Assembly (NCBI GenBank): GCA_026388735.1
Contig: JAPLJG010000035.1
Location: forward strand, 1-49,491
DNA from: Deltaproteobacteria bacterium
GTDB lineage: Bacteria > Desulfobacterota > Desulfobulbia > Desulfobulbales > Desulfurivibrionaceae
DNA: 49,491 nucleotides
Reading direction: 5' to 3'
Shown: positions 1,820-33,225 of the stretch, one piece after another
How positions within the stretch are numbered: the stretch's first letter is position 1
Layout of the letters: every line of letters begins with the position of its first letter
Translations under genes and position numbers: made by a program
The notes under the pieces: generated by a model
What the model saw: only the letters and a program-made list of their open reading frames with translations
The model's database searches: none
What the model was told of the DNA's origin: nothing

Positions 1820-1898
1820 TACGCCGGTAGGGCAGTCCCGTGCATAGCATGGTATTTTTTGATGAAAAAAACATAACCCCGATGTGATATATTCTGTC

Positions 1899-2828
1899 AT
1901 GACCGTGTTCACGAAAAAAAGGTTTGGCTGTGTCTGGCGCAACGCCATGTGTTTGGGGCTTCTTTTTTTCCTGCTGGTCGGCTGCGATTCCGGGCAGCAG
2001 GAAAAGGCGGAGCAGGAGCGGTTGGTCCGGCTGGACAAACTCCAGCAACTTCCTGCTGGACAGGCCGAGTCTAACTCACAGACGCTCCGGATCGGGGTGG
2101 GGGCGATCCTTTCTCCTCAAGGCACCGCGCTCTCCTATCAGCCGCTCATCGATTACCTAGGCCGCAGGATGGGCAAACCGGCAATCCTGGTGCAGCGTAA
2201 AACCTACCAGGAGCTGAACGACCTGTTGGCCAGAAACGTGGTGGACCTGGGTTTCATCTGCACCGGGGCCTATGCCGAAGGCACCCGGAACGGGGCGATC
2301 TCGCTGTTGGTTGTCCCCCAGATCAACGGCAAGACCACCTACCGGGCCTTTGTCATCGTCCCGGCCGCTTCTCCGGTCCGGGAATTTGGGGACCTGCGCG
2401 GCAAGGTTTTCGCCTTTACCGATCCGCTGTCCAATACCGGCTATCTCTACCCGCTCTCCCTGTTGCGGGGCATGGAGCAGCAGCCGGAGACCTTCTTCGG
2501 TCGGACGATTTTCACTTACAGCCACGACCGTTCCATGGCCGCGGTGATGGAGGGCTTGGCGGACGGCGCCTCGGTGGACAGTCTGGTCTATAAATTCGCC
2601 GGAAAGCGCAACCCTGAAATTCTTGCGCGGACCAGGGTGATCTGGGAATCGCAGGATTTCGGCATCCCCCCGGTGGTGGTGCCGCGCACCATTTCCCCGG
2701 AGAAGAAGGCCGCGTTGAAAGAGCTGCTCCTCGGGCTGCATCAGGATGCGGAAGGCGAAAAAGCCCTGGCCGCGATCGGGGTGGAACGTTTCGTTGAGCC
2801 TCCTGAGCCGCGACTGTATGGATTCTAA
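1899..2828 (+). CDS. PhnD-like periplasmic oxyanion-binding lipoprotein
   Basis: A lipoprotein signal (LLFFLLVGC, Cys29 counted from the ATG at 1899) is followed by a type 2 periplasmic binding fold of the phosphate/phosphonate PhnD family: TLRIGVGAILSP, LIDYLGRRMGKP, VDLGFICTGAYAEG, LRGKVFAFTDPLSNTGYLYP and a GVERF ending. A GTG at 1884 is an alternative start. The gene ends 6 bp before the histidine kinase and no transporter genes follow, so a sensory role is more likely than uptake. PhnD-like proteins serve as the sensing part of AioX/ArxX arsenite systems and of the tetrathionate kinase TtrS. The ligand is probably the oxyanion reduced by the enzyme encoded at 9148-12402; that is inference. 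Confidence 0.85.
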   Translation: MTVFTKKRFGCVWRNAMCLGLLFFLLVGCDSGQQEKAEQERLVRLDKLQQLPAGQAESNSQTLRIGVGAILSPQGTALSYQPLIDYLGRRMGKPAILVQRKTYQELNDLLARNVVDLGFICTGAYAEGTRNGAISLLVVPQINGKTTYRAFVIVPAASPVREFGDLRGKVFAFTDPLSNTGYLYPLSLLRGMEQQPETFFGRTIFTYSHDRSMAAVMEGLADGASVDSLVYKFAGKRNPEILARTRVIWESQDFGIPPVVVPRTISPEKKAALKELLLGLHQDAEGEKALAAIGVERFVEPPEPRLYGF

Positions 2829-2834
2829 GGAGAG

Positions 2835-4304
2835 ATGCCCGTGCCTGTTGCCCTGATCTCTGTGCCCGCATTTTTCCGGCAAGCCGTACGCCGGGTCAGG
2901 TCCGTCCTGCTCAGTGTGCCGCTGAAGCTCAAGATTCTGGGACTGGCCCTTGCCCTGATCCTGCTCTTTGGCGCGGTCACCATTTACAAGGTGCAGGCGG
3001 CGCTCAGCGAGAATTTCGACGCCTTTCTTCAGGAAGAGAGCCGCTTCGTGGCAACGGAACTCTCCTACCAGTCCCACGATTACCTGTTGATCAACGATAT
3101 GTACGGGCTGACCCAGATGCTCAGGAATACGGTGCAGAATCGCCCGGACCTGCGTTATGTTTTTGTCCGCAATGCCGAAGGGCAGGTGGTGGCCCACACC
3201 TTTGAGGGCGGGTTTCCCGGAGATCTGTTGGAAAAAATCTCCGGCCTTTCGCCGCAGAGGTCGGAGCCGAGGCTGCTTCGCACCAATGAGGGCAGCATCT
3301 GGGAGGCAGAGGCCGGCATCAGCAACGGCAACGAGGGCGCGGTGGTGGCCGGAGTGAAGGGCGACAGCTTGCGCCGCCAGATCGGGGTGATCACTCGTTC
3401 CCTTGCCCGGACCACCCTGCTGGTGGCAATATTCGGAGCGCTCTTGTCCCTGGGGCTGACCTGGCTTATTACCCGGCCGGTGACCAGGCTGCTTGAAGCC
3501 ACCCGGGCCGTGCGGCGGGGAGATTATTCCGTGCGCCTGGACCCGGCGGAAAGCCGGGATGAATTGGGGAAACTCATGGAGGGTTTCAATGCCATGGTGG
3601 GCTCCCTTGTCATCGCGGAGAAGGCCCGGTTAGGAAAGGAATATCTCCAGCGGGATTTTTTGCACCGGGTCATGGCCGGGCAGGAGGGAGAAAGAAAACG
3701 GATCGCCCGGGAGCTCCACGACCAGACCGGTCAGGCCCTGGCCTCTTTCATGGTTGACCTCAAGGTGCTTGAAAACGCGCAGAGTGTGAATGATCGGGGC
3801 CAGGGGATCACCCGGCTGAGAAAGGCCATTACCGAGGAGATGGAGGCGATCCATGATCTGGCCGTGGCGTTGCGGCCCACGGTGCTGGACGATCTCGGCC
3901 TGGTGCCGGCCGTGGAGATGCTGGCCCGAAATTTCGAAAAACGGCACCGGATACAGGTGCGCCTGAATTTTCTCGGCTTTCTTGACCGGCGGCTTGAACT
4001 CTGTCTGGAAACCTGCGTGTACCGGATTATTCAAGAGGCGCTCACCAATATCGTCAAGCACGCCCAGGCCACCGAGGTGACGATTTTTCTGGAAGGCGGG
4101 GAAAAAACCCTGCGCGGCGGGGTTGAAGACAACGGCCGCGGCTTTGAGCCGGAGAATATCGACCAGGCAAAACATATGGGAATCTACGGCATGCGGGAGC
4201 GGATCCAGCTTCTGGGCGGCTCTTTTCACATCGACAGCGACAAAGGGATTGGCGCCATGATCTCCTTCGAAATCCCTATCAAACAGGAAAAATGCCATGA
4301 GTAA
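2835..4304 (+). CDS. Membrane sensor histidine kinase (NarX-type, HisKA_3)
   Basis: The start at 2835 has a good ribosome binding site (AAGGAGAG). The protein has a first membrane helix at about residues 30-52, an extracytoplasmic sensor of about 130 residues, a second helix at about 190-212 and a HAMP segment (RPVTRLLEATRAVRRGDY). A HisKA_3 dimerisation box follows with phospho-acceptor His295 in ERKRIARELHDQTGQ. The HATPase domain has its N box (EALTNIVKHAQA) and DNGRGF. This class phosphorylates LuxR/NarL-type regulators, and exactly such a gene overlaps its 3' end by 8 bp. With the PhnD-like lipoprotein in front it resembles a split TtrS, or an ArxX-ArxS arrangement. Confidence 0.92.
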   Translation: MPVPVALISVPAFFRQAVRRVRSVLLSVPLKLKILGLALALILLFGAVTIYKVQAALSENFDAFLQEESRFVATELSYQSHDYLLINDMYGLTQMLRNTVQNRPDLRYVFVRNAEGQVVAHTFEGGFPGDLLEKISGLSPQRSEPRLLRTNEGSIWEAEAGISNGNEGAVVAGVKGDSLRRQIGVITRSLARTTLLVAIFGALLSLGLTWLITRPVTRLLEATRAVRRGDYSVRLDPAESRDELGKLMEGFNAMVGSLVIAEKARLGKEYLQRDFLHRVMAGQEGERKRIARELHDQTGQALASFMVDLKVLENAQSVNDRGQGITRLRKAITEEMEAIHDLAVALRPTVLDDLGLVPAVEMLARNFEKRHRIQVRLNFLGFLDRRLELCLETCVYRIIQEALTNIVKHAQATEVTIFLEGGEKTLRGGVEDNGRGFEPENIDQAKHMGIYGMRERIQLLGGSFHIDSDKGIGAMISFEIPIKQEKCHE

Positions 4305-4965
4305 AACACGCATCCTGATTATTGATGACCACCAGCTGCTTTCCTCCGGACTGGCCATGCTGCTCTGCGCTGAAAAAGACCTGGAGGTGACAGGGCAGGC
4401 GGACAGGCCGGAGACAGCCCTGCGGCTTGCAGAGGAACAACAGCCGGACATCCTCCTCCTGGACATCTCTCTTCCGGGCAGAAGCGGCCTCGACCTGCTC
4501 CCGGAACTGCTGGCGCGTTCGCCGCAATCACGGGTTATCATGATGACCATGCATGAGGAACAGCAATATCTTAAAAAAGCGATCGAAGGCGGGGCCAAGG
4601 GCTTTGTGCTCAAAAAAGGGGGAGGCACGGACCTGATGTACGCCATTCGGGCGGTGATGCAGGGCGACACCTATATCCAGCCCTCCATGCTGGCCGATTT
4701 TATCAAAACAGGTGAAGAGAGCAGCGAGGGATCTCCGGAAAACCTTTCCGAGGATGAGCAACGCTGGCGGATGTTAAGCCAGCGGGAGCAGCAGATTGTG
4801 CTTGGGGTCGCAAAAGGATATACCAGCCGCGAGATGGCCGAAGGGATTTTTTTAAGCGAAAAAACCGTGGCAACCTACCGCTCCCGCGCCATGACCAAGC
4901 TCGGCTTTGAGAGCAGGGCGGATCTGGTTGAATTTGTCCTGCGGCTGAGGAAAATCGATATCTGA
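4297..4965 (+). CDS. NarL/LuxR-family response regulator
   Basis: The N-terminal receiver domain has the acidic pair D10-D11, phospho-acceptor D56 (LLLDISLPG) and a late conserved Lys (VLKKGG). The C-terminal LuxR helix-turn-helix reads LSQREQQIVLGVAKGYTS and then SEKTVATYRSRAMTKLG. The length of 222 residues is usual for the family. It overlaps the kinase gene, so the two are translationally coupled. The next operon on this strand begins 412 bp downstream, and an imperfect inverted repeat at 5224-5243 could be its operator. The likely job is induction of the molybdoenzyme operon in response to the PhnD-like sensor; this is inferred from position only. Confidence 0.93.
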   Translation: MSKTRILIIDDHQLLSSGLAMLLCAEKDLEVTGQADRPETALRLAEEQQPDILLLDISLPGRSGLDLLPELLARSPQSRVIMMTMHEEQQYLKKAIEGGAKGFVLKKGGGTDLMYAIRAVMQGDTYIQPSMLADFIKTGEESSEGSPENLSEDEQRWRMLSQREQQIVLGVAKGYTSREMAEGIFLSEKTVATYRSRAMTKLGFESRADLVEFVLRLRKIDI

Positions 4966-5139
4966 ATCGGGAAACCCCAGCCAGGTTTTTGGCCGCAAGA
5001 TCCGTCCAATGCCTACAGCCGTTTTCCCTGTGCCAGCAAAATCCCTGCACCGAAATCTAATTTTTCCCGCTATATTTTCCTTGCGATCTTCGTCATAGTG
5101 TTGCCAGGTTTGGTGACGACCAAATACCCTTTCCTCCTT

Positions 5140-5181
5140 CCCACTTCTCCCTGCCCCCTCGGGGAGAAGTGGGTTTTTTTT
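5140..5181 (+). terminator. Rho-independent terminator after the sensor triad
   Basis: A perfect 12-bp stem (5140-5151 with 5162-5173, core CACTTCTCC/GGAGAAGTG) is closed by a 10-nt loop and followed by eight T residues. It lies 175 bp past the response regulator and separates the sensory genes from the moaA operon. Apart from this and the repeat at 5224-5243, I see nothing in 4966-5377 that I can support. Confidence 0.85.
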
Positions 5182-5223
5182 CACCATATGTCCCGCGGAA
5201 AAAAACGCAATGTCAGGAAAATA

Positions 5224-5243
5224 CCTACACATTTCGGCGTAGG
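5224..5243. promoter_or_regulatory. Candidate operator upstream of the moaA operon
   Basis: CCTACAC, a 6-nt spacer and GCGTAGG form an inverted repeat with 6 of 7 positions matching. It sits about 135 bp before the moaA start, in the leader that follows the terminator. NarL-class regulators bind short inverted heptamers of this general kind, and one is encoded directly upstream. No convincing -35/-10 pair could be placed, so the assignment is weak. Confidence 0.35.
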
Positions 5244-5377
5244 GGTCACACATTTACCGGCAAATAAATCAAATAAAAACCGCTACTTTTTTTTTCTTCT
5301 TCATGCATAATAACGGTGGTCTAGGAAAGAGATCTTCAGCGCGCATCGTGCGCGACTTCCATGGACTGAGGAGGATC

Positions 5378-6361
5378 ATGCCGAATACCCTTTGTGACTC
5401 CCACGGCAGATGCATCACCTATCTGCGTCTGGCTGTCACCGACCGTTGCAACCTGCGCTGCACCTATTGTATGCCGAAGGGTTGCCTCACCTCCAAAAGC
5501 GAACTGCTCGATTATGATGAACTGCTCCGGGTGGTCCGAATCTTTGCCGGTCTCGGTATCGGCAAAATCAGGCTGACCGGCGGAGAACCTTTTGCCCGCA
5601 AAGGCTTTGTCGATTTTTTGGCGGAGATAAAAGAGGTGCCGGGCATCAAGGAAATCGGCATTACCACCAACGGCACGCTCTGCTTTAATGATATACAGCG
5701 CCTCAAGGCCTCGGGGGTTACCGGCCTCAACTTCAGCCTGGATACCCTGTCGCCTGCCCGGTACAAAAAAATCACCGGCGCGGACCTGTTCCATGAGGCG
5801 TTTGCCTCCATCATGGAGGCTGTTTTTCTGGGAATCCGCGTGAAGGTGAATGTCGTTGTCCTGGACAATGACAATTGCGATGAGCTGTTGCACCTTGCCG
5901 GACTGGCGGATGATTATCCCGTTGAGGTGCGTTTTATCGAACCCATGCATTTCAACGGCAGCGGAGAATTTACTCCGCCGCAGTGGAATGCGGCGCGGCT
6001 CAAGGCTTTTTTTCTGGAAAATCTTCCCGGTTGCGTCGAACTCCTCAAGAAACATGACTCCACCGCCCAGCTTTTCAAGGTGAAAAATTATCTCGGCATA
6101 GTGGGCATCATCGCCGGGCACTCCCGTAGTTTCTGCGCCTCCTGTAACAAGGTTCGCCTGACCCCGCAGGGGGTGCTGAAAAACTGTCTGTACGACAACG
6201 GCGTTCTCGACATGAAAGGGTTATTGCGCAGCGGCGCCGATGACGGGGAAATAATCGTTGCCATCCAAAACGCGGTGACGGCAAAATCCGCGGATGGGTC
6301 CATCGTGGAAAAAGATCGGCGCGACCGCATGCCCCGCTCCATGGCGACCATCGGAGGATAA
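5378..6361 (+). CDS. moaA: GTP 3',8-cyclase MoaA (molybdenum cofactor synthesis)
   Basis: MoaA is a cytoplasmic radical-SAM enzyme that makes the first molybdopterin intermediate from GTP. The radical-SAM cluster motif is C24-x3-C28-x2-C31 (DRCNLRCTYC). The second C-terminal cluster ligands are C253, C256 and C270, and the protein ends in the family's Gly-Gly tail (ATIGG). The ATG at 5378 is preceded by GGAGGATC; the frame stays open further upstream, but no other start there has such a site. It leads the operon of the molybdoenzyme at 9148-12402, so it probably boosts cofactor supply when the reductase is induced. It may be an extra copy beside a housekeeping moaA elsewhere. Confidence 0.93.
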   Translation: MPNTLCDSHGRCITYLRLAVTDRCNLRCTYCMPKGCLTSKSELLDYDELLRVVRIFAGLGIGKIRLTGGEPFARKGFVDFLAEIKEVPGIKEIGITTNGTLCFNDIQRLKASGVTGLNFSLDTLSPARYKKITGADLFHEAFASIMEAVFLGIRVKVNVVVLDNDNCDELLHLAGLADDYPVEVRFIEPMHFNGSGEFTPPQWNAARLKAFFLENLPGCVELLKKHDSTAQLFKVKNYLGIVGIIAGHSRSFCASCNKVRLTPQGVLKNCLYDNGVLDMKGLLRSGADDGEIIVAIQNAVTAKSADGSIVEKDRRDRMPRSMATIGG

Positions 6362-6856
6362 ATGAACATGAAAGCGAATACCGGACACGTGGAAGCGGTC
6401 TGCGTCAGCGAAAAGAAAGGCATGGTGAAAAAAGAGGTGCCTGAGATCCTCCTGGAGGAAAAATGGGGGATCACCGGGGACGCCCATGCCGGAATCTGGC
6501 ACCGGCAGGTCTCCCTGCTGGCCGGGGAAAGCATCGATGCGGTGAAAAAAAAGATGCCCCACCTCAAGCACGGGGTGTTTGCCGAGAACATCGTCACCCG
6601 GGGGCTGGATCTGCTACAGCTTGCCATCGGCGACCGGTTGGTGATCGACGGCACGGTGGTGCTCGAAGTCACCCAGATCGGCAAGGAATGCCACAACGCC
6701 GGCTGCGCTATCAAGAAGGCCACCGGCGACTGCATCATGCCCAAGGAAGGGATCTTTACCAAAGTCATCCACGGCGGGGTTGTCAAGGGGTGCTTCGCCA
6801 TTGAAGTAGAATTTGCCGCCTACCTTGCCACCAAGAGTGAGGCCGCCTGCCGCTGA
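6362..6856 (+). CDS. MOSC-domain protein
   Basis: The start codon follows the moaA stop directly, and the GGAGG in the last codons of moaA serves as its ribosome binding site. The 164-residue protein is a single MOSC domain: [30 protein letters not shown], and then a Cys-rich [11 protein letters not shown] with [15 protein letters not shown] domains bind molybdenum cofactor and use a Cys for sulfur transfer or Mo-centre maturation. Stand-alone forms are often found beside moaA or moaB. Here it probably helps cofactor insertion, storage or sulfuration for the adjacent reductase. The exact reaction cannot be read from sequence. Confidence 0.88.
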
Positions 6857-6899
6857 GTTGTGCCGTTGTCGTGATAATTTTAATTTTAAGGAGAACCTC

Positions 6900-7988
6900 G
6901 TGCCGGAAACACCCAGAAAACTTTCCTTTCTTGACCGCTTTCTCACCCTGTGGATATTTCTGGCCATGTTTGCCGGGGTAGCCGGAGGGTATCTTTATCC
7001 CGGCATCCGCGACATCATCAACTCGTTTCAGGTCGGGACCACCAACCTTCCCATCGCCTTCGGCTTGATCCTCATGATGTACCCGCCCCTGGCCAAGGTG
7101 CGCTACGAAAAGCTGCACGAGGTGTTCGGCAATACCAGGGTGCTGCTGCTTTCGCTGGTGCAGAACTGGCTGATCGGACCGCTGCTCATGTTTGGGCTGG
7201 CAGTGGCTTTTCTTTCCGGCCAGCATCAGTACATGGTGGGATTGATCCTCATCGGCCTGTCCCGCTGCATCGCCATGGTCATCGTCTGGAACGACCTGGC
7301 CGACGGCGACCGGGAGTACTGTGCCGGGCTGGTCGCCTTCAACTCCATCTTTCAAGTCTTGTTCTTCCCTTTCTATGCCTGGCTCTTCATCACCGTCGTT
7401 CCCGGCTGGCTGGGGCTTGAAGGGGCGGTGGTGGACATCTCCATGGGGCAGATCGCCGAGAGCGTCTTCATCTATCTCGGCATTCCTTTTCTCGCGGGCA
7501 TGTTCACCCGGCTGCTCGGGCTACGGCTCATGGGCGAGGACTGGTATCAGCAGCGATTGCTGCCGAAGATCAGCCCGCTGACTTTGGTCTTCCTGCTCTT
7601 CACCATCGTGGTGATGTTTTCCCTCAAGGGCGAATACATCGTGCAGCTGCCCCTTGATGTGCTCCGCATTGCCATCCCGCTCACCATCTATTTTCTGGTG
7701 ATGTTTTTGGTCTCTTTTTTCCTGTCCATGAAAGCCGGGGCCACCTACGAGCAGTCGGCCACCCTGTCTTTTACCGCTGCCTCCAACAACTTCGAGCTGG
7801 CCATTGCCGTGGCCATCGCCGTGTTCGGCATCGACTCGGGCCAGGCCTTTGCCGCAGTGATCGGGCCGCTGGTCGAGGTGCCGGTGCTTCTTGGCCTGGT
7901 CCATGTGGCTTTGTGGTTTCGAGGCCGTTATTTTCCGCATGTCAGGCAGACTCCGGCTGGCGTCTGCCATGTGAGCTGTAAATCGTAA
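6900..7988 (+). CDS. acr3: ACR3-family arsenite (antimonite) exporter
   Basis: About ten hydrophobic helices, the opening [16 protein letters not shown] and the segment [17 protein letters not shown] identify the ACR3 family; Cys123 in SRC is the conserved residue needed for As(III) transport. I start at the GTG at 6900, which has AAGGAG 7 nt upstream. An in-frame upstream start would overlap the MOSC gene and add a non-homologous tail. ACR3 expels As(OH)3, and in many cases Sb(OH)3, from the cytoplasm using the proton gradient. Its position inside the molybdoenzyme operon, not in the ars cluster at 33 kb, suggests that the enzyme's product is As(III) or Sb(III). Confidence 0.92.
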
Positions 7989-8032
7989 GCAGTGGTTGGT
8001 GGAATCTGAACACACACAAGAGGAGGAGCATC

Positions 8033-8347
8033 ATGAGAAGCGTTCTGGCAGTTCCGGCGGTGCTGGCCCATCTGGTCTTGATGGCCGTGCCAGCCTTTGC
8101 CGTGGTCGGCGGCGGGGAGATCACCATGCAGAACAAGGGAGGGAGTGTGGTTTTTAGTCACGAACTCCATGTGGACGGGCTGGGGAATGCCTGCCAGGCC
8201 TGTCACCCCAAGCTCTATACCACCAGCAAACAGCATAAACCCGTGACCATGAAGGCCATGCAGGCCGGAACATCCTGCGGTGCCTGCCACAACGGTGCCA
8301 AGGCCTTTTCGGTGAAAGGCAACTGCGCCAAGTGCCATACGAAATAA
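8033..8347 (+). CDS. Triheme c-type cytochrome (c7-like), periplasmic
   Basis: The 104-residue protein has a cleavable signal peptide (ending near VPAFA, residue 23) and three CxxCH heme sites: C54-H58, C82-H86 and C98-H102. Extra His residues (FSHELHVDG, KQHKP) can serve as distal ligands, as in c7 cytochromes. The ribosome binding site is AGGAGGAG. It lies between the exporter and the ferredoxin subunit. There is no membrane quinol-oxidising subunit in the operon, so this cytochrome probably carries electrons from the periplasmic pool to the FeS/molybdenum subunits. Small c7-type proteins of this kind are typical of deltaproteobacteria. Confidence 0.9.
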   Translation: MRSVLAVPAVLAHLVLMAVPAFAVVGGGEITMQNKGGSVVFSHELHVDGLGNACQACHPKLYTTSKQHKPVTMKAMQAGTSCGACHNGAKAFSVKGNCAKCHTK

Positions 8348-8364
8348 CCCCACAAGGAGAAGCC

Positions 8365-9111
8365 ATGAACGACATTCTCGTTACCATGCACGAAGAGCTG
8401 GCGCAGGCGCTGCAAAGAAAGCCCGATGAGCGGCGGTGGGCCATGCTCATCGACCTGCGTAAATGCGTGGGCTGCCACGCCTGCACCATTGCCTGCGTTT
8501 CTGAAAACAAGCTGCCCCCCAAGATGCACTACCGCCCAGTGTACGAATATGAGCAGGGCAAGTACCCCAAGGTTTCCCGCACCTTCCTGCCCCGGCCCTG
8601 CATGCAGTGCGACAAGCCGCCCTGCGTGGACGCCTGCCCAGTCAAGGGCGAGGCGACCTGGAAGGAAACCAAGGGCATCGGCGCGGGCACGGTGCCCATC
8701 GATTACGCCAAATGCATCGGCTGCGGCAAGTGTGTCCCGGCCTGTCCCTATGGCGCGCGGACCATGGACGAGGGCAAGTTCCACAGCGAAGGCACTCCCG
8801 CCATTCAGAAATACGAGACCATGCCCTCTTTTGAATACGGCAAGCAATGGCCCCGGTCCGGCAAGAACCAGCCCATCGGCAATGCCCGCAAATGCCATTT
8901 CTGCGTGCATCGGCTCGCTAACGGCATGCTCCCCCAGTGCATCACCACCTGTGTGGGCCGGGCCGGCTACTTCGGCGACGAGAACGATCCCAAGAGCCTG
9001 ATCGCCCAGGTGAAAAAGGCCAACAAGGTGCAGATCCTCAAGGCAGGCAAGGGCACGGCCCCCAGGGTCTACTATGTGTCCAACGACAAGCTGGAAACCC
9101 TGTACCGCTAA
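8365..9111 (+). CDS. Four-cluster ferredoxin subunit of the molybdoenzyme (TtrB/PsrB type)
   Basis: The start at 8365 follows AAGGAGA. The 248-residue protein has four Cys groups in the usual order: CVGCHACTIAC (C34-C44), CMQCDKPPCVDAC, CIGCGKCVPAC and CHFC with CITTC, enough for four 4Fe-4S clusters. It has no signal peptide, so it is probably exported with the Tat-dependent catalytic subunit as a pre-formed complex. Salmonella TtrB carries its own Tat signal, so this is a difference. The role is electron transfer from a donor (probably the triheme cytochrome) to the catalytic subunit's own cluster. It ends 36 bp before the catalytic gene. Confidence 0.92.
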   Translation: MNDILVTMHEELAQALQRKPDERRWAMLIDLRKCVGCHACTIACVSENKLPPKMHYRPVYEYEQGKYPKVSRTFLPRPCMQCDKPPCVDACPVKGEATWKETKGIGAGTVPIDYAKCIGCGKCVPACPYGARTMDEGKFHSEGTPAIQKYETMPSFEYGKQWPRSGKNQPIGNARKCHFCVHRLANGMLPQCITTCVGRAGYFGDENDPKSLIAQVKKANKVQILKAGKGTAPRVYYVSNDKLETLYR

Positions 9112-9147
9112 CGCTGCCCCGCATGAAACTATCTCTCTGGAGGAGTT

Positions 9148-12100
9148 ATGAATAATCTGAAAAAAACGAAAGACAAGGAAGAACAGTCCGGCCTTTCCCG
9201 GCGGGATTTTCTGCAAAAAACCGCCCTGGCCGGTTGCGCGGCCCTGGCCGCAAGCCAGTTGGATTTCGCCCATATGCTGATCGCACGGGTCGAGGCCGGG
9301 GAGCTGACCGCGGCCGAGGCCTACGAGTTGATGAAAGCCGAAAACACCCTGTACACCGTGTGCCTCAACTGTAACACCGGCTGCGGCATCAAGGTTAAGG
9401 TCCTGGATGGGGTGGCGGTGAAAATCGACGGCAACCCATACAATCCCTTCACCCTCAATCCGCATCTACCCATGAAGGAAGACCTGAACTACGCCGCCAA
9501 GCTGGACAGCGGCATCTGTCCCAAGGGCCAAGCCGGACATCAGGGCGCCTACGATCCGTACCGGATCAGCCGGGTACTGAAACGGGCGGGCAAGCGGGGC
9601 GAGGGCAAGTGGCAGGCAATTCCCTTTGACCAGGCGATCAGCGAGATCGTTAACGGCGGCCTGCTTTTTAAGCAGGTGCCCGGCGAGGAGAGCCGCCAGG
9701 TTGCGGGGCTGAAAGAGATCTTCGCTCTCAAGGACGCCAAGGTCTACGAGGAGATGGGCAAGGATGTCGCGGCTCTGCGCAAGAAGAAAACCCCGGAAGA
9801 GAAGCTGGCCGCCATCGCCGAGTTCAAAGTTAAGCACGCGGCCAATCTCGACAAGCTCATCGACCCGGAGCACCCGGATTTTGGCCCCAAGAACAACCAG
9901 TTCGTTTATATGTGGGGCCGCAAAAAAGGCGGGCGCGCCGATTTTGCCAAGCGGTTCACCGAGCAGTTCGGCACGGCCAATACCCACGGCCACACCACGG
10001 TCTGCCAGGGTTCGCTCTACTTCGCCTCCAAGGCCCTGAGCGAGCAGTACGTGGGCGATACCTTCAAGGACGGTCAGAAATTTTACTGGCAGGCCGACCA
10101 GGAGAACTCCGAGTACATCATGTTTGTCGGGGCCAACCTCTTTGACGCCAATTACGGCCCCAGTAACCGTAGCCCGCGCATCACCCAGCGTCTGGCCGAT
10201 GGCAAGCTCAAAATCACCGTGCTGGACCCCCGGTTTTCCAAGCTGGCCAGCAAGGCCAACCGCTGGGTGCCGGTGCTGCCCGGCACCGATGCCGCCTTTG
10301 CCAACGGTGCGGCCCGCTGGATTCTGGAAAACAAGCGGTTCGACGCCAAATACCTGGGCAACGCCAACAAGGCTGCGGCCACAGCCGGCAAGGAGACCAC
10401 CTGGTGCAACGCCGCCTGGCTGATAAAACTGGACAAGGAAGGCAAGCCCGCCTCCTTGCTGCGCGCTTCCGACATCGGCCTCAAAGATAAGGAAACCCGC
10501 AAGGACAAGGACGGCAAGGAGTTCACCTTTGAATATTTGGTGGCCATGCAGGGCGGCAAGCCGGTACCCTTTGATCCCAACGACGAGAAGGAAGCCGTGG
10601 TCGGCGATCTCTTCGTCACCGCCGAGCTGACCGCTCAGGACGGCAAGAAGGTCAAGGTGAAGAGCGGTTTGCAGGTGCTGCTCGACACAGTGCGCGAGAA
10701 ATCCATCGCCGAGTACGCGGCTATCTGCGGCATCGAGGCCAAGGTGATCGAGGAGGTGGCCAAGGAGTTCACCAGCTACGGCAAGAAAGCCTGTGTGGAC
10801 ATGCACCGCGGCCCGGCCCAACACACCAATGGCTTTTACAACATCTCGGCCCTGTATGCCTTGAATCTGCTGATCGGCAACTTCGACTGGAAGGGCGGCA
10901 TGATCGTGGCTTCCACCTTCAACACCGACGGCACCAAAACCGAGGCGCAGCCCTTCAATTTTAAGAAAATCACCCCGAAAAGTCCCAAGGCCTTTGGCCT
11001 GTCCATCATCCGCCACGACGCCAAGTACGAAGAGTCCACCATCTTCGACAAGGACAAGTACCCGGCCAAGCGCAACTGGTGGCCGCTCTCCTCGGATGTG
11101 TACGAGGAGATTATCCCCTCTTGCGCCGATGCCTATCCGTATCCGATCAAAGCGCTTTTTTCCTACTGTGGGGCGCCCACTTACTCCCTGCCCGCCGGGC
11201 ATACCCAGATCGAGGCGCTGGTCAATTTGGAGCGTATCCCGCTTTACTTTGCCAGCGACATCACCATCGGCGTGACCACCGTGTATGCCGACTACATCTT
11301 CCCGGATCTCCACTATTTGGAGCGCTGGGAGATGCAGGGCTCGCACCCCAACATGCCGGTCAAGGTGCAGCCCATCCGCCAGCCGGTTATCCAGTCACCC
11401 AATGAGATCGTCACCGTATTCGGCGAGCAGCAACCTATCTCCTACGAGGCGGTATGGCTGGCCTTGGCCGAGAAACTTGGCCTGCCTGGCTTCGGACCCA
11501 ACGGCTTTGGCGAAGGCCAGCCCCTGACTCGACCCGATGACTTCTACATCCGCATGGTGGCCAATGTGGCCACCGACGGCAAGGAGCCGGTGGCCGATGC
11601 GCAGGCGGCGGAGATCGAGCTGTTTACCAAGTCCCGCAGGCATCTGCCCAAGAATGTTTTTGACGTGGATCGCTGGAAAGCCATTGCCGGTGCGAGTTTC
11701 GCCAAAGTGGTGCATGTCCTGAACCGGGGCGGTCGTTTCGAAACCCAGGAGAACAGCTACAAGGGCGACCAAGTGGCCAACAAGTGGGGCAAGTACATCA
11801 ACCTCTATCAGGAAAAGACCGCCAAGTGCAAGGATGCCTTCACCGGCAAGCACTACTTGGGGATGGCCAAGTACATGCCCATTGTCGATTGCCTGGACCG
11901 CCCGCCCACCGAGCAGTCCAAGGGCTACGACCTGCACATGATTACCCAGAAGGACGTGCGCATGACCAAGTCCCGCACCATCACCCAGCAGTACCTAAAC
12001 GACTCCACGGGGGAGAACGGCATTGTCATCCATACCAGCGATGCCAAGCGTTTGGGTCTCAAGACCGGGGATCAAGTCAAGGTTATTTCGGCCACCAACG

Positions 12101-12402
12101 CGGAAGGGAGCTGGAACCTGCAAAACGGGAAAAAGAAGCCGATGGTCGGGAAGGTCCAGGTCACGGAAACCATCCGCCCTGGTATCATTACCATTCTCCA
12201 CGGCCAGGGCCACTGGGCTACCGGTGCCGTGGATCAGACCATCGACGGCAAGGTGATCAAGGGCGATCCGCGCCGCGCTATGGGCATCAATGCCAATGCC
12301 GCCATGTGGGTGGACTCGCATCTTAAAAACACCTGCATGATCGACAAGGTGGGGGGGAGTGTCTCGTTTTATGACACCAAGGTGAAGCTGGTGAAGGTAT
12401 AG
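9148..12402 (+). CDS. Tat-exported TtrA-like molybdopterin oxidoreductase, catalytic subunit
   Basis: This is a 1084-residue DMSO-reductase superfamily protein with a twin-arginine signal (SRRDFLQK, residues 17-24) and GGAGG before the ATG. The FS0 cluster ligands are C72-x2-C75-x3-C79 and a distant C124, a 44-residue spacing unlike ArrA but like TtrA. C286 in HTTVCQG is the probable molybdenum ligand. From memory of Salmonella TtrA I recognise matching blocks: GKRGEGKWQ, HPDFGPKNNQ, VKSGLQ, LLIGN, DFYIRMVANVA and a C-terminal HGQGHW region. Known members of this clade reduce tetrathionate and, in some bacteria, selenate or other oxyanions. The partner genes argue for a metalloid substrate. 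Substrate identity is not shown by the sequence. Confidence 0.9.
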   Translation: MNNLKKTKDKEEQSGLSRRDFLQKTALAGCAALAASQLDFAHMLIARVEAGELTAAEAYELMKAENTLYTVCLNCNTGCGIKVKVLDGVAVKIDGNPYNPFTLNPHLPMKEDLNYAAKLDSGICPKGQAGHQGAYDPYRISRVLKRAGKRGEGKWQAIPFDQAISEIVNGGLLFKQVPGEESRQVAGLKEIFALKDAKVYEEMGKDVAALRKKKTPEEKLAAIAEFKVKHAANLDKLIDPEHPDFGPKNNQFVYMWGRKKGGRADFAKRFTEQFGTANTHGHTTVCQGSLYFASKALSEQYVGDTFKDGQKFYWQADQENSEYIMFVGANLFDANYGPSNRSPRITQRLADGKLKITVLDPRFSKLASKANRWVPVLPGTDAAFANGAARWILENKRFDAKYLGNANKAAATAGKETTWCNAAWLIKLDKEGKPASLLRASDIGLKDKETRKDKDGKEFTFEYLVAMQGGKPVPFDPNDEKEAVVGDLFVTAELTAQDGKKVKVKSGLQVLLDTVREKSIAEYAAICGIEAKVIEEVAKEFTSYGKKACVDMHRGPAQHTNGFYNISALYALNLLIGNFDWKGGMIVASTFNTDGTKTEAQPFNFKKITPKSPKAFGLSIIRHDAKYEESTIFDKDKYPAKRNWWPLSSDVYEEIIPSCADAYPYPIKALFSYCGAPTYSLPAGHTQIEALVNLERIPLYFASDITIGVTTVYADYIFPDLHYLERWEMQGSHPNMPVKVQPIRQPVIQSPNEIVTVFGEQQPISYEAVWLALAEKLGLPGFGPNGFGEGQPLTRPDDFYIRMVANVATDGKEPVADAQAAEIELFTKSRRHLPKNVFDVDRWKAIAGASFAKVVHVLNRGGRFETQENSYKGDQVANKWGKYINLYQEKTAKCKDAFTGKHYLGMAKYMPIVDCLDRPPTEQSKGYDLHMITQKDVRMTKSRTITQQYLNDSTGENGIVIHTSDAKRLGLKTGDQVKVISATNAEGSWNLQNGKKKPMVGKVQVTETIRPGIITILHGQGHWATGAVDQTIDGKVIKGDPRRAMGINANAAMWVDSHLKNTCMIDKVGGSVSFYDTKVKLVKV

Positions 12403-12423: not shown

Positions 12424-12464
12424 AAAAAAAACGGGCGGCCTATTTTTCGGCCGCCCGTTTTTTT
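12424..12464. terminator. Bidirectional terminator between convergent operons
   Basis: A perfect 10-bp GC-rich stem (12431-12440 with 12449-12458, ACGGGCGGCC/GGCCGCCCGT) has an 8-nt loop. It is flanked by an A-run on the left and a T-run on the right, so it can end transcripts from both the reductase operon and the long leftward cluster. Confidence 0.9.
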
Positions 12465-12570
12465 GTTGTTTCACACAAAGGGATGGGAGATGGAGTCAAG
12501 TCGATCAAACCCGGCTGTCTACCCGTGGCTCTCGGGGTATCGTTTTTTTCGACAGGGTGCTCCATACTCG

Positions 12571-12819
12571 TTATCTTTCAGCGTTTTCAACCAGCCAGTC
12601 CTTCACTTCGGCGCGGGTCGGTATACGTCCGGCGCAGACCAACTTTTCGTTTATTACCAAGGCGGGGGTGGAGAGAACATCATAGGCTAGGATTTCGGCG
12701 TAATCACTCACCTTGACGAATTCCGCTTCCAGTCCTAGATCAGAAGTCGCCTCACGAGTAACTGCCTCTATTTTTTTACAGTTGCCGCATCCTGGCCCAA
12801 GAATTTTTATTGTCAACAT
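12571..12819 (-). CDS. Small thioredoxin-fold protein, redox-active disulfide type (CGNC)
   Basis: The 82-residue protein opens with MLTIKILGPGCGNCKK, followed by LSTPALVINEK, the cis-Pro loop of thioredoxin folds. This is the pattern of the small 'redox-active disulfide protein 2' family, often found beside ArsP/DUF318-type permeases. The start has GAGGAGG upstream. It is the last gene of the long leftward run, 33 bp after the permease gene. It probably passes electrons to, or binds metal(loid) for, that permease; the function is inferred from recurrent pairing. Related copies lie at 31882-32115 and 33676-33939. Confidence 0.88.
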   Translation of the reverse strand: MLTIKILGPGCGNCKKIEAVTREATSDLGLEAEFVKVSDYAEILAYDVLSTPALVINEKLVCAGRIPTRAEVKDWLVENAER

Positions 12820-12852
12820 GGTTGCCTCCTCGATAAATTTTAAGGTTATTTT

Positions 12853-14313
12853 TTAGGGAACAGGCGAAGGCGAAAGGCTGCGTCGGCTCACCAATTGCAG
12901 CACAAGCGCCAAACCACCCAGAAAAAGGCTCAGGTACAACAAAATCAGCCAGATGCTCACGCCATCGATCCAGGTGCCGTAGAGCAACCCCGCCAAGGTG
13001 CTGAACAGCGCTATCCAGCCCACATAAGTCCATGTCTTCAAGGGGCCGATGATCTTTGAGGTGATGAGGATGCTCTGCAGACTCAATTCGGGATCGGCCA
13101 TGAGGTAGGCGAGCAGTGGTCCGCGGTGCATCCCCAGGCCGAGGAACATGTGGGCTATGGGAACCTCAACCAAAGTGGGGAAATACATGAACACGCCGAA
13201 AATAACGCCGGCGAGATTGCCGAGGATGGTGTTGCTACCCGCCAGATGTTGAATCCAGGTCGGGCGGATGAATTGCCGGATGACCCCCACCAGGAAGACG
13301 CCAACAATGAGCAGAGGAAATATCTGCTTGACGAACTTCCATGTCTCCCACAGCCAGGCGCGCACCTCCCGTTCTTCAAGGTGACGGCTAGCCAGGTAGG
13401 TGAGCAGCGCCAGACTGAACGCCACGCCAACGCTCTTGCCGGTGAGGTTGATGACAAGGCCGGAGGGCTGCGGAGTCATCCCCACCGATGCGGTAAGCAG
13501 GGTAAGCGCGGCAAGTCCGAGTGTGGCCCAAGCCCAGCCGTTGAATTCTTCGATGATGTTTTCCAGGCCCTTCCAGGCGGTGAGGGCAATCGCCATGAGA
13601 AGGGCGATGAGGATCGCGCCTTGGGCCGTTACCCCCTCCTCGCTCTTACTGGCGTCGAAAGGAACCAGGGAAAAAAGGATTTCCTGGAAACGATCCATGC
13701 CCGGAATTGGCAGGAACAACTGACTGTAGCTCTTGGTTAGCAGGTCTATTTTGAGCACTCCGGCCAGAAGAATCGCTACCAGGGTCAGCAGGAAAAAAAG
13801 CACCGGTCGGCTTAACTGGCCTTGTTCGGTAAAAAGTGTATCGGTCATCGTATCGTGGGCGATATCCTCTCGTCGGAAGAGAAGCGCCATGATCATGCCG
13901 ATGCTGACGCCAAAGGCGAGTGACAGGAAGAAGCGGGCCAAGGCGAGGTCCACGCCAATGACACTGCCAGTATAGAGCAGGGCCAAAATATTCGCGGCCG
14001 GAGCGAAGAAGAGAAAGGTGATGGCTGGCCCCAGGCCAGCACCTTTCTTGTAGATGCCAGCGAAGAGCGGCACGATGGTACAGGAACAGACCGAGAGTAC
14101 CGAGGCTGCCAGGATGGCGGCGGGATAGGAAAGGAGCCGGGGCGTATTGCGGCCCAGGAGGCGGGTTACCGTACCCTTGGGAATGAGCGCCGCCATGCAG
14201 CCGGCGATGCAGAAGGCTGGGACGAGGCAGAGCAGGATATGAGCGGCAAGATACGTCGCCAAGTTAGCGAGACCGGCTTGCACCAATTTGAACGCGAACG
14301 CCGAGCTGTCCAT
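12853..14313 (-). CDS. ArsP/DUF318-type permease, long form
   Basis: The 486-residue, strongly hydrophobic protein (about 11-12 helices) shows the hallmarks of the PF03773 permease family: SVCSCTIVPLFAGI in one half and FPTLVEVPIAHMF in the other. The Cys-Ser-Cys in a membrane helix is shared with the permease at 32130-33215, which is 125 residues shorter. The start at 14313 has AAGGAGG upstream. Some relatives export trivalent organoarsenicals, but most are uncharacterised. The gene is followed by its thioredoxin-like partner and preceded 32 bp away by the P-type ATPase. Confidence 0.85.
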   Translation of the reverse strand: MDSSAFAFKLVQAGLANLATYLAAHILLCLVPAFCIAGCMAALIPKGTVTRLLGRNTPRLLSYPAAILAASVLSVCSCTIVPLFAGIYKKGAGLGPAITFLFFAPAANILALLYTGSVIGVDLALARFFLSLAFGVSIGMIMALLFRREDIAHDTMTDTLFTEQGQLSRPVLFFLLTLVAILLAGVLKIDLLTKSYSQLFLPIPGMDRFQEILFSLVPFDASKSEEGVTAQGAILIALLMAIALTAWKGLENIIEEFNGWAWATLGLAALTLLTASVGMTPQPSGLVINLTGKSVGVAFSLALLTYLASRHLEEREVRAWLWETWKFVKQIFPLLIVGVFLVGVIRQFIRPTWIQHLAGSNTILGNLAGVIFGVFMYFPTLVEVPIAHMFLGLGMHRGPLLAYLMADPELSLQSILITSKIIGPLKTWTYVGWIALFSTLAGLLYGTWIDGVSIWLILLYLSLFLGGLALVLQLVSRRSLSPSPVP

Positions 14314-14345
14314 GATCTGTCTACCTCCTTATATTCTTAATATTC

Positions 14346-17312
14346 TTACGTATGCGCCATGACTATGCGGTGACCCCGCGATTGATAGCGCAGGTATAAC
14401 TTGGTGATTTCTTCCGTAACTGCGGGGATAAGTGCCAGACCCACGACAACACCCCACTCCCGTACCCCCAGGGAATGAGTATTAAAAACCGGCTGCAGGA
14501 ATGGCAAGGCACACACGATGAGGAGCAGTGTGATCGAAAGTCCGACGGCATATTGCATGAAACGATTCGAGAACACTCCAAGACGGAAGAGCGAGACCCT
14601 CTCCGAACGGACGGTATAGGCGCGGAATAACTCCGCGAGTGAGAGTGTGGCAAAAGCCATCGTCCGGGCGGTGAGGAGTGCCTCCGGTTCAATGGAGCGC
14701 CAGTCGAAGTTGAGAAGATACATCAGGGGGTTGGTCCCCTGTGGCACGCTGTGACCAAGCGCCTGTATTCCCCAGGTCAAACCAATGCCGAAGGCCGATA
14801 ACGTTGCGCCGGTCTGCATGATGGTCTGGATGAAAATACCTAATTGCATCGTGGTATTGATAATCGGTTCACGCTTCGGACGGGGCTTTCGCAGCATACT
14901 ATCCGGGTCGCCTTTTTCCATGGCCAACGCCAGTGCCGGTGCTCCATCGGTGATCAGGTTTAACCACAGGAGTTGGATGGCCGTCAACGGCGTGGGCAAC
15001 CCTGCCAGTGTCGTCAGGAAAATGATCATAATCTCAGCCACATTCGAAGAGAGCAGGTAAAAGACGAACTTGCGAATGTTGTCATAAATAATCCGTCCCT
15101 GCTCGACGGCAGATACGATGCTGACATAATTATCATCGGTCAGCACCATGTCGGCAGTCTCTTTGGTCACGTCTGTGCCGGTAATGCCCATCGCCACACC
15201 GATGTCTGCGCGTTTGATGGCCGGGGCATCGTTGACGCCGTCACCGGTCATTGCCACCACCTCTCCGTTACGATGCAGCGCGTCCACGATGCGCATCTTA
15301 TGCTCAGGTGAGACGCGCGCAAAGACATCCGTCTGCTTGATCTCGCGTTTCAGATCGTCGTCGCTCATTCGGTCCAGATCAGCGCCCGTCAGAACCTTAT
15401 TGCCGGGACGCAACAGGCCGATCTCTTTTGCAATGGCGCGTGCCGTGTTGGGATAGTCGCCGGTGATCATCATCGTACGAATGCCGGCATGCATCGCCTT
15501 TTCAAGCGCACCCTTGACCTCTTCCCGCGCCGGGTCAATCATTCCCACCAAGCCGACAAAAATCAGGTTTTTCTCCAATTCATCTGGCGCGGCGTCTGCC
15601 TTGGGCGCTTCCCGTATAACGCGGTAAGCGACGCCCAAGACGCGCAAGGCATCCTGGGTCATCGCATCATTGGCATCCAGAATGCGCCGCCTGGTAACCT
15701 CATCCAGAGGTTGCGATGTATCCGTGATGGACTGGTAATGGCTACAGAGATTCAAAACCACGTCTGGTGCGCCCTTGACCGCAATTACGACCCAGCCGCG
15801 CTGCTTCTCGTCATAGAAGGGCGAAAGGTCTTCCGGTCGAGGGGCGGCAATATCATGGATGGTCACCATGCGTTTACGTCCCGAGTCGAAGGGGACTTCA
15901 TGCGTGCGCGGGTACGCTTTGTGGAGTTCCCCGTGGTATTTATCCGCTTTCGCAACGGCAATCAGCAGCGCTCCTTCGGTCGGATCTCCGATAATACGAT
16001 AGGACTGGTCATCGGCGGTAAGCGGTTCGAGTTGGGCGTCATTATTCAGCCCCCCTACCCATAAAGTGGTGAGCACGGCAGGATAGTCCTTCATATCGCA
16101 CGGCTTATTATCCACCATAATTTCGCCGTGCCGCGAGTACCCTGATCCGGTAACGGTAACGAATTGTCCATCCACCCAGAGGTGGGTGACGGTCATCTCG
16201 TTCTGGGTCAGCGTGCCGGTCTTATCCGAGCAAATAATAGTGGCCGAGCCGAGTGTCTCGACTGAGGACAGACGGCGGATGAGCGCGTGGCGGTGGATCA
16301 TTTCGTGCATGCCCAGAGCCAAGCTAATAGTCACCACCGCAGGTAATCCTTCCGGCACTGCTGCGATTGCCAAGCTGACGGCCACCAGAAACATATCCAC
16401 CAACTGCCCTTTGGCTGCCTTCAAGTAGGGCAGGACGCCGCCGTCGGCTGCGGTCAGCAGGCTCAAGTCCGTATTTTTGAGAACTGAAACGATGAAAACC
16501 AGCCCGCAGACTGCCATTGCGCCCCAGCCCAGAACCTTGCCCAATTGATCCAGGCGTCTCTGCAACGGGGTTTCTTCTTCTCCCACTTGCTGGAGCATTC
16601 CGGCGATCAGGCCCAGCTGGGTGCGCATGCCCGTGCTGGTGATCACACCGTGCCCGCGCCCAGAGGTCACGGTTGACCCCATGAAGGCGGTGTTTTTGCG
16701 GTCGCCAAGCGGGATGTTACCATCAAGCTTTAGTGAAGCGTTCTTCAACACGGGCAGAGATTCGCCGGTTAGGGAAGCTTCATCTACTTGCAAATTAATC
16801 GCCTCCAGTAGCCGCATATCCGCAGGGATATGGTTGCCGGCCTCCAGATAGACGATGTCACCCGGCACAAGGCTACCGGTCGGGATCGCTATCCGATACC
16901 CATCCCGACGGACATGCGCCTCGGGAGCGGCTAGCTTCTTGAGGGCAGCCAGCGCGTTTTCGGCGCGTCTATCTTGAATGATACCAAGGATGGCATTCAG
17001 CAGCACAATCGCCATAATCGCCGAGGCGTCAATCCACTCACCCAGCAGGGAAGAGACGATGGATGCCGCAATCAGCAGCTTTACGATAAAATTATTGAAT
17101 TGACCCCAGAGCATCGAGAGGAAAGACGGGCGCGGCGCTTCGGTCAGTTGGTTTAAACCGTATTGCGCCAACCGCTCGGCTGCCTGCTTGGAGCTTAGCC
17201 CCTCCTCGCTGGCATTGAGACGCTCCAATACGTCCTGTGGAGAGAGCACATGCCAGTGTATCGTCTCGGTCTGGATGGCAGCCTCAACTGCCTGCGGAGT
17301 GGATTTCTTCAT
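14346..17312 (-). CDS. P2A-type cation ATPase (Ca2+-transporting, SERCA/PMCA-like)
   Basis: The 988-residue length and motif order fit a P2-type ATPase: an N-terminal cation-ATPase domain, TGES in the actuator domain, the helix-4 motif VPEGLPAVVTISLALG, phosphorylation site D363 in DKTGTLTQNEMT, KGAPD and TGDGVNDAP in the nucleotide and P domains, and a C-terminal group of about six helices with NLITDGAPALAL. Bacterial members pump Ca2+ (sometimes Mn2+) out of the cytoplasm. It has no CPx heavy-metal motif, so it is not an arsenic or copper pump itself. It sits inside the leftward resistance run, 21 bp after the CcdA gene. Confidence 0.92.
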   Translation of the reverse strand: MKKSTPQAVEAAIQTETIHWHVLSPQDVLERLNASEEGLSSKQAAERLAQYGLNQLTEAPRPSFLSMLWGQFNNFIVKLLIAASIVSSLLGEWIDASAIMAIVLLNAILGIIQDRRAENALAALKKLAAPEAHVRRDGYRIAIPTGSLVPGDIVYLEAGNHIPADMRLLEAINLQVDEASLTGESLPVLKNASLKLDGNIPLGDRKNTAFMGSTVTSGRGHGVITSTGMRTQLGLIAGMLQQVGEEETPLQRRLDQLGKVLGWGAMAVCGLVFIVSVLKNTDLSLLTAADGGVLPYLKAAKGQLVDMFLVAVSLAIAAVPEGLPAVVTISLALGMHEMIHRHALIRRLSSVETLGSATIICSDKTGTLTQNEMTVTHLWVDGQFVTVTGSGYSRHGEIMVDNKPCDMKDYPAVLTTLWVGGLNNDAQLEPLTADDQSYRIIGDPTEGALLIAVAKADKYHGELHKAYPRTHEVPFDSGRKRMVTIHDIAAPRPEDLSPFYDEKQRGWVVIAVKGAPDVVLNLCSHYQSITDTSQPLDEVTRRRILDANDAMTQDALRVLGVAYRVIREAPKADAAPDELEKNLIFVGLVGMIDPAREEVKGALEKAMHAGIRTMMITGDYPNTARAIAKEIGLLRPGNKVLTGADLDRMSDDDLKREIKQTDVFARVSPEHKMRIVDALHRNGEVVAMTGDGVNDAPAIKRADIGVAMGITGTDVTKETADMVLTDDNYVSIVSAVEQGRIIYDNIRKFVFYLLSSNVAEIMIIFLTTLAGLPTPLTAIQLLWLNLITDGAPALALAMEKGDPDSMLRKPRPKREPIINTTMQLGIFIQTIMQTGATLSAFGIGLTWGIQALGHSVPQGTNPLMYLLNFDWRSIEPEALLTARTMAFATLSLAELFRAYTVRSERVSLFRLGVFSNRFMQYAVGLSITLLLIVCALPFLQPVFNTHSLGVREWGVVVGLALIPAVTEEITKLYLRYQSRGHRIVMAHT

Positions 17313-17333
17313 TTCACCCCCATGAGTCCGAAC

Positions 17334-18035
17334 TCAGCCCACAAACGGCCTGACCAGAAAATATATCCCAAGTCCTGCGATCAATACCCCGGCCCCCTTG
17401 CGGAACCAGGGGCTTGCCTGACTGAATGAGGAACTGGCCAGCAGTCGTTTCACCGTAGCGGTTGAGCTGCCGGCCACGGCGATGGGCAGGCAGTGGCCGA
17501 TGGCAAACAGGAGGATGAACAAAACGCCGGTCAGCACCTGCTGCTGGACCGTGATAATGGCCAGGATGGGGGCGATAAAGCCGAAGGTGCAGGAGCCGGA
17601 GAGAACGCCGTAGGCAAGCCCCAATACAAAGGCGCCCCACGCCCCCCGGACCTTTAATTTCGCCATGAGCCCGCTGGGCACGGAGCACTTGGCAATGCCC
17701 AGCATGTCACCGGCCACCCAGAGCAGAATCACTCCCACGGCCATGGTCCAGTACGGCCCCACATCCCCCAGCATCCTACCGAGCAGGGCGCAGATCACCC
17801 CCACCAGGACGATGGTCAGAAAAAGGCCGACACTGAACAGCACCGCGTAGTGTACGGCCTGTCTGCCCTTGACCAGTTGTTCCTGGCCGCCCACATAGGC
17901 CACCACCAGAGGGATGGAGGCCAGGTGGCAGGGGCTGAGCAAAACGCTGATCATGCCCCAGAGAAAACAACCCAGGGCGGCAAGGGCGAGGCCAGCGCCC
18001 ATCCATTCATTGACCTGGAGAAAAAGGGCGTCCAT
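17334..18035 (-). CDS. ccdA: CcdA/DsbD-type transmembrane thiol-disulfide transporter
   Basis: The 233-residue membrane protein has about six helices and two conserved intramembrane Cys motifs, LLSPCHLASIPLV in the first helix and SGSCTFGFIAP in the fourth, the redox pair of CcdA/DsbD. It moves reducing equivalents from cytoplasmic thioredoxin to periplasmic thiol proteins. Its start overlaps the stop of the periplasmic thioredoxin gene by one base, so the pair is translationally coupled and probably works as a split DsbD. Neighbouring rhodaneses suggest the reductant serves sulfur chemistry in the periplasm, though cytochrome c maturation is an alternative. Confidence 0.9.
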   Translation of the reverse strand: MDALFLQVNEWMGAGLALAALGCFLWGMISVLLSPCHLASIPLVVAYVGGQEQLVKGRQAVHYAVLFSVGLFLTIVLVGVICALLGRMLGDVGPYWTMAVGVILLWVAGDMLGIAKCSVPSGLMAKLKVRGAWGAFVLGLAYGVLSGSCTFGFIAPILAIITVQQQVLTGVLFILLFAIGHCLPIAVAGSSTATVKRLLASSSFSQASPWFRKGAGVLIAGLGIYFLVRPFVG

Positions 18036-29782: not shown

Positions 29783-29819
29783 GGCGTCCTCCTGGCAATG
29801 GTGCGATTTCCCGTCATGT

Positions 29820-33215: not shown

Positions 33216-33225
33216 GGCATATTCC

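Follow-up and report, generated by a model that had tools for sequence, protein, structure and literature searches.

A nine-gene island at positions 1884-12402 of the window, i.e. the whole stretch of 49,491 nucleotides that was analysed, probably encodes a periplasmic two-subunit molybdoenzyme for an arsenic-type oxyanion, most likely arsenate, that lies outside the ArrA clade. In its gene content the island looks like a little-studied respiration of such an oxyanion, in which a small haem protein would replace the usual membrane partner and which has kin in several phyla. The parts are of known kinds, and the predicted novelty is their arrangement, with a cytochrome c7 replacing NrfD on a non-Arr enzyme that is accompanied by an ArrX-type sensor. 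In arsenate-grown Melioribacter roseus, a TtrA-type gene next to a sensor of this kind and ars genes has been described before (PMC5492636).

All nine genes are located on one strand in the order sensor, kinase, regulator, moaA, MOSC, ACR3, c7, FeS subunit and catalytic subunit (Table 1), and both the gene calls on the window and the family models bear out the gene list of the original prediction. The gaps are shorter than 50 bp from moaA through the catalytic gene, while 337 bp separate the regulator and moaA. The start of the FeS subunit was taken at the ATG inside an open reading frame of 8332-9111, and a Tat signal of its own was not seen in this subunit on inspection by eye. One copy of the catalytic subunit gene is present in the genome, where six other matches are short and score 38 bits or less, and only one ACR3 exceeds the TIGR00832 cut-off in the 91.6% complete assembly, the second match reaching 85 bits. 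The thioredoxin-like gene that follows the island is also close to the reductase in several relatives' loci, and the ArsP_1 permease next to it is also present inside the flanks of L028, L029, L030, L031, L137 and L128. Both genes belong to a block at 12462-17679 that includes a cation P-type ATPase. Other observations in the window include a second ArsP_1-family permease (32130-33359; PF03773, 251 bits) and two similar small proteins about 4 kb apart (29261-29845 and 34000-34599), each with a PF04060 putative Fe-S domain.

Table 1. Predicted genes of the island and of its downstream flank, with the evidence for each assignment
Feature	Position	Strand	Evidence
PhnD-like periplasmic lipoprotein, predicted ArrX-type oxyanion sensor	1884..2828	+	Pfam PF12974 Phosphonate-bd 195.7 bits; lipobox LVGC by eye
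Membrane sensor histidine kinase	2835..4304	+	HAMP, HisKA_3
NarL/FixJ-type response regulator without AAA+ domain	4297..4965	+	Receiver and GerE
MoaA, molybdenum cofactor synthesis	5303..6361	+	TIGR02666 297 bits, cut-off 284
MOSC-domain protein	6362..6856	+	Pfam PF03473; 175 bits to MOSC half of PRK14499, cut-off 457
ACR3 arsenite/antimonite exporter	about 6900..7988	+	TIGR00832 445.7 bits, cut-off 282.8; start GTG 6900 by eye
Exported triheme cytochrome c7	8033..8347	+	TIGR04257 90 bits, cut-off 40; PF14522; CxxCH at 54, 82, 98
Four-cluster [4Fe-4S] subunit	8365..9111	+	16 Cys in four groups; TtrB model 168 bits, cut-off 416
Tat-exported molybdopterin catalytic subunit, TtrA/SrdA-like lineage	9148..12402	+	Family models, alignments, trees, AlphaFold model
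Thioredoxin-like redox protein	12571..12819	-	Thioredoxin_3
ArsP_1-family permease	12853..14313	-	PF03773 224 bits

The catalytic subunit fits the DMSO reductase (CISM) superfamily, with FS0 cysteines, a Cys ligand to molybdenum, and molybdopterin and dinucleotide-binding domains. The residues originally assigned to FS0 (C72/C75/C79/C124) and to the Mo ligand (C286) are invariant in alignments of 12 and 26 rows. The AlphaFold model (mean pLDDT 77.5, pTM 0.78) shows a DMSO-reductase-family fold; the fold comparison does not discriminate, since perchlorate reductase, ArrA and PsrA are all at 15-18% identity and no single solved enzyme is close. TtrA (NCBIfam NF011567) is the best curated model at 495 bits, as against a cut-off of 1750, a score of 2075 for E. 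coli TtrA and 1158 for L022, a locus of the same order but of another lineage, and assignment as a proven tetrathionate reductase was rejected on this basis. ArrA was likewise rejected, the score with NF041714 being 128 bits against a cut-off of 1600; since the ArrA-like protein of Geobacter OR-1 also falls under this cut-off (1007 bits), the threshold by itself is a demanding one. Round the Mo ligand the window enzyme reads HGHTTVCQGSLYF, which is invariant but for one Leu across the 26 aligned rows from several phyla, one of them Methanoperedens, while TtrA, ArrA and the basal rows L143 and L144 differ from it.

The sample of relatives behind the trees and the counts leans to window-like enzymes, since the search that supplied it was limited in rows and kept the best 80 of 559. 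Prior to tree construction 25 locus ids (duplicates or partial copies, one of them, L124, with an in-frame stop) and one short L045 open reading frame were dropped. In the resulting 109-row tree, with the ArrA-like protein of Geobacter OR-1 as the outgroup, the window enzyme is placed in a 29-row clade (SH-aLRT 99) within a 98-row TtrA/SrdA-like lineage (100), which is separate from TtrA, haloarchaeal and Citrobacter plasmid enzymes and at whose base (L143, L144 and kin) another motif is found. A 39-row bootstrap tree brought all 25 of the chosen clade rows together at 100/99. Long-branch warnings were given for both trees, and the deepest branchings of the relatives that carry NrfD are uncertain. 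By these models and trees the catalytic subunit is a member of a TtrA/SrdA-like lineage and neither TtrA nor ArrA, its likeness to SrdA being drawn from published description. Its placement outside the ArrA clade and apart from the proven tetrathionate reductases, as anticipated in the original prediction, holds in both model scores and tree.

The absence of an NrfD subunit from the island was also correctly anticipated: none was found in the gene cluster, and the five NrfD genes elsewhere in the assembly correspond to DsrP, a HybB-type hydrogenase subunit, an HmcC-like protein and two genes on contig C68. In the sample built on the best 80 of 559 relatives, NrfD adjoins the reductase in 0/25 clade loci (those with at least 1.8 kb upstream, out of 28 besides the window) as compared to 45 of the 63 comparable loci outside the clade, the 69 rows classed as others including three plasmid reference loci; NrfD was scored by phmmer at 1e-4 from nine queries, so that divergent copies may be missed. 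A cytochrome, counted as having at least three haems or being a c7 homologue, is beside the reductase in 19/25 clade loci and 8/63 others of the same sample. The c7 homologue accounts for 17 of these 19 clade loci, with only two CxxCH motifs in two, and six of the 25 have no cytochrome next to the reductase. The proposed replacement of NrfD by c7 thus extends to most of the 29-row clade. Records that carry the c7-FeS-catalytic triple bear names such as Desulfobulbaceae, Geobacter, Myxococcales and Nitrospirae. At least 12 changes of NrfD state are required on the tree, indicating that the module was swapped often, and when independent pairs are compared, the association of cytochrome gain with NrfD loss does not reach significance (median p 0.25).

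A stretch of contig C68 of the same genome (L162, 3-3554) carries an FeS subunit, a triheme c7 and NrfD, with about 1.1 kb without a clear gene between, and no catalytic gene was found in it; it is a possible quinol-to-c7 module. The NrfD of L162, NrfH or an Hmc-like complex could act as the quinol oxidiser for the island. Among the known arsenate reductases, ArrAB has a membrane subunit in few organisms only (PMC8076601), and Shewanella ArrAB is fed by CymA (PMC2500031).

The putative substrate was approached through the sensor and the linked genes. Among 17 matched PDB sequences, the window sensor matches ArrX (6x6b) best at 179 bits, followed by AioX (113) and PtxB (65). The pocket residues of AioX are named as Y88, C106, Y131, S161, S163, H192 and D210 (PMC5908839), and the aligned residues in the window are Y, C, Y, S, T, H and D, so that the predicted pocket is identical at six of seven positions, with S163 replaced by Thr (numbering counted by hand). 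ArrX binds arsenate (Kd 1 uM) and phosphate (150 uM) in vitro and none of the other oxyanions listed in that account, including selenate, tetrathionate and antimonite, antimonate not being among those tried (PMC5908839). Three other sensors were compared; for two of them, from relatives of which one lies outside the clade, ArrX is again the best match (199 and 178 bits). Chrysiogenes ArrR resembles the window regulator in having no AAA+ domain and a FixJ-like HTH (PMC5908839). A search of the window for the FixJ-like site reported as a palindrome upstream of Chrysiogenes arrA, with up to two mismatches, gave 22 matches where 27 were expected, i.e. no signal, and a second pattern was no more informative.

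Linkage of ACR3 to the reductase is not unique to the genome of the window, as ACR3 is present within the flanks of 8/28 other clade loci in the sample built on the best 80 of 559 relatives. A survey of whether ACR3 and the triheme cytochrome stay linked had been suggested by the original prediction; the cytochrome does so in most of the clade loci and ACR3 in a minority. With the window added to those clade loci that have at least 12 kb of flank, linkage in 7/22 corresponds to p of about 1e-9 to 2e-7 if a 1-2% chance per locus and independent loci are assumed, although the relatives are not independent. Among loci of this same sample with at least 12 kb of flank, ACR3 is near 6/21 in the clade and 6/40 outside, and a PhnD-like gene near 7/21 and 20/40, respectively, so that neither is special to the clade. 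An arsR gene is beside ACR3 in five loci (G005, L028, L032, OR-1 and L137), and an arsC-like gene occurs in OR-1 and L032 (145 and 143 bits, below the cut-off of 174). A full-length ArrA-like gene was found in only one of the 26 genomes with the enzyme and a stop-interrupted fragment in one more, some of the assemblies being incomplete. Four lines of comparison, the ArrX-like sensor, the linkage of ACR3, arsR and arsC-like genes, the scarcity of ArrA and a transcript of M. roseus described below, thus point to arsenic.

Selenate is the alternative that survives best, although it is still considered unlikely: the enzyme would be an SrdA-type selenate reductase, with the arsenic genes as neighbours suited to a habitat that contains both As and Se. 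In print, one clade unites TtrA and SrdA with an arsenate reductase of archaeal origin (PMC7331816, PMC10100899), Methanoperedens proteins have been named SrdA (PMC7327174) and an srdA survey lists Geobacter among possible hosts (PMC6662431). Since the motif round the Mo ligand is common to the Methanoperedens row and other Methanoperedens proteins are published as SrdA, the lineage may equal the selenate reductase of other authors. Many sister loci also show the FeS, NrfD, catalytic order of SrdBCA of Bacillus selenatarsenatis, from which the window, compared by description, is set apart by the lack of C and the presence of c7. However, selenate is not bound by ArrX in vitro (PMC5908839). The linkage of ACR3, arsR and arsC-like genes, too, points to arsenic.

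A respiratory antimonate reductase, with ACR3 exporting Sb(III), which this transporter moves in addition to As(III), is rather improbable. In Geobacter SVR, which respires antimonate (PMC8032467), similar accessory genes surround another molybdoenzyme: a candidate antimonate reductase locus (L186:1022-15328) contains PhnD-like, kinase, regulator and FeS genes, a different molybdoenzyme and MoaA-, MOSC- and ArsP-like genes, together with TatC- and MoeA-like genes recognised by eye. The SVR genome is nevertheless without the present enzyme family, its best match being 57 bits as compared to 1732 for Geobacter OR-1, and the window enzyme was rejected as an ortholog of SVR AnrA, with which it shares metalloid respiration as the proposed role. 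The SVR sensor, moreover, is no closer to ArrX (57 bits) than to PtxB (63). The original prediction had left the choice between arsenate and antimonate open; arsenate is now favoured, since the window sensor is closest to ArrX, which is reported to bind arsenate and phosphate but neither selenate nor tetrathionate, and antimonate loses ground for the same reason and with the absence of the enzyme from SVR, the one antimonate respirer compared.

A role in detoxification, or as an oxidase acting on As(III) or Sb(III) and yielding the +V state, in place of respiration appears very unlikely; arsR lies beside ACR3 in relatives and an auxiliary role has been proposed for the M. roseus enzyme (PMC5492636), but a periplasmic Mo reductase that is wired through FeS clusters and a cytochrome and accompanied by an oxyanion sensor triad would fit respiration better. 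Reduction of tetrathionate or another sulfur oxyanion can be nearly dismissed, in spite of the TtrA model being the best match and the occurrence of DsrK and DsrP in the genome, given a score far under the TtrA cut-off, a different Mo-ligand motif and, as compared with the B-C-A order, NrfD-type C and Tat signal on B of the Ttr clade (PMC2500031), an order of c7-B-A, no C and no Tat signal on B by eye. TtrBCA thus resembles the window system in its broad family, Cys ligand to Mo and four-cluster FeS partner, and differs in its identity of about 30%, active-site motif and NrfD-type TtrC.

One of the closest described systems is that of M. roseus (MROS_1076/ArrTSR/arsRPCB), in which a TtrA-type gene has a PhnD-like/kinase/regulator triad and ars genes as neighbours, and its transcript is up on arsenate (PMC5492636). 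Its authors preferred a PsrA-type enzyme, for which alone the rise was significant, as the main arsenate reductase, and proposed the auxiliary role for the TtrA-type enzyme (PMC5492636). The likeness to the window lies in a TtrA-lineage enzyme outside Arr, a sensor triad and ars genes with arsP nearby; the M. roseus system is, however, drawn as TtrABC with a membrane subunit, and the words triheme and cytochrome c7 are absent from PMC5492636. The M. roseus enzyme was compared by description, and an Ignavibacteriales relative (L043) is 57% identical to the window enzyme. The earlier statement that no described system has this gene set was therefore too strong, in view of this published locus and of the similar accessory set round a different molybdoenzyme in SVR. 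For the c7-FeS-TtrA-like cluster itself no description was recognised in open-licence PMC papers. Growth on arsenate without ArrAB has been reported for some bacteria (PMC9751042), and PAE1265 of the archaeon Pyrobaculum aerophilum, compared by description, is similarly a TtrA-clade enzyme proposed as an arsenate reductase in the absence of ArrA (cited in PMC5492636 and PMC9751042). ArrAB with ArrXSR of Chrysiogenes and Shewanella shares with the island the sensor type, the general lack of an NrfD subunit and the feeding by a c-type cytochrome (CymA in Shewanella), and differs in ArrA itself, given the model score of the window catalytic subunit and its other Mo-ligand motif. Another TtrA-family enzyme tied to arsenic genes, 30.7% identical to that of the window, is present on the Citrobacter arsenatis conjugative plasmid NZ_CP037863.1 (L106), where FeS and membrane subunits accompany it and arsBAD and a regulator lie alongside.

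The enzyme is patchily distributed. Within the genus of the window a close copy occurs in 2/17 genomes (its own and one at 96%), and other families of this order have copies at 88% and 79%. Among 141 genomes from the order to which Geobacter OR-1 belongs, 16 gave a match at 1e-100; 11 of these score at least 1,497 bits, and the weaker remainder are other TtrA-type genes or fragments. Such a patchy spread suggests lateral transfer of the enzyme. Named strains with it include Geobacter sp. OR-1, which also has the c7, and Anaeromyxobacter oryzisoli SG63. In a separate instance, genome G109 carries two members of the family 10 kb apart (L130 and L131), one with multihaem cytochromes upstream. In the nearest genome, G005, DNA identity to the window is 92% over the block that runs from ACR3 through the catalytic gene, while no DNA match to the sensor triad, moaA or MOSC occurs before the G005 contig soon ends; a diverged MOSC and arsR are found instead, without a sensor triad at the locus. 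No DNA match to the window block at 12462-17679 was seen in the 19 kb of G005 that were compared; thioredoxin- and ArsP-like proteins are encoded about 8.5 kb downstream of the reductase in that genome. With the same block under other upstream genes, regulation of the same enzyme seems interchangeable.

In the proposed working of the island, the ArrX-like lipoprotein would bind the oxyanion and signal through the kinase to the NarL/FixJ-type regulator, which would switch on the operon, while MoaA and the MOSC protein may, from their families, aid synthesis of the molybdenum cofactor. Because the Tat signal is on the catalytic subunit only, the folded catalytic subunit is likely to carry the FeS subunit through Tat. 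A separate module would oxidise quinol and hand electrons from the quinone pool to the triheme c7, from which they would pass to the four clusters of the FeS subunit, FS0 and the Cys-ligated Mo, the c7 route standing in for the NrfD subunit of many sister lineages, and ACR3 would expel any As(III), or Sb(III), that had entered.

It may be, though we put this forward with some doubt, that arsenate-respiring molybdoenzymes outside ArrA have spread laterally over Desulfobulbales, Geobacterales, Myxococcota, Nitrospirota and candidate phyla, dropping the NrfD quinol oxidase and gaining a dedicated c7, and have thus been missed by arrA surveys. If true, such surveys undercount the release of arsenate in groundwater and sediments, and the swap to a soluble c7 would show a reductase re-wired to the cytochrome networks of Geobacter-like bacteria.
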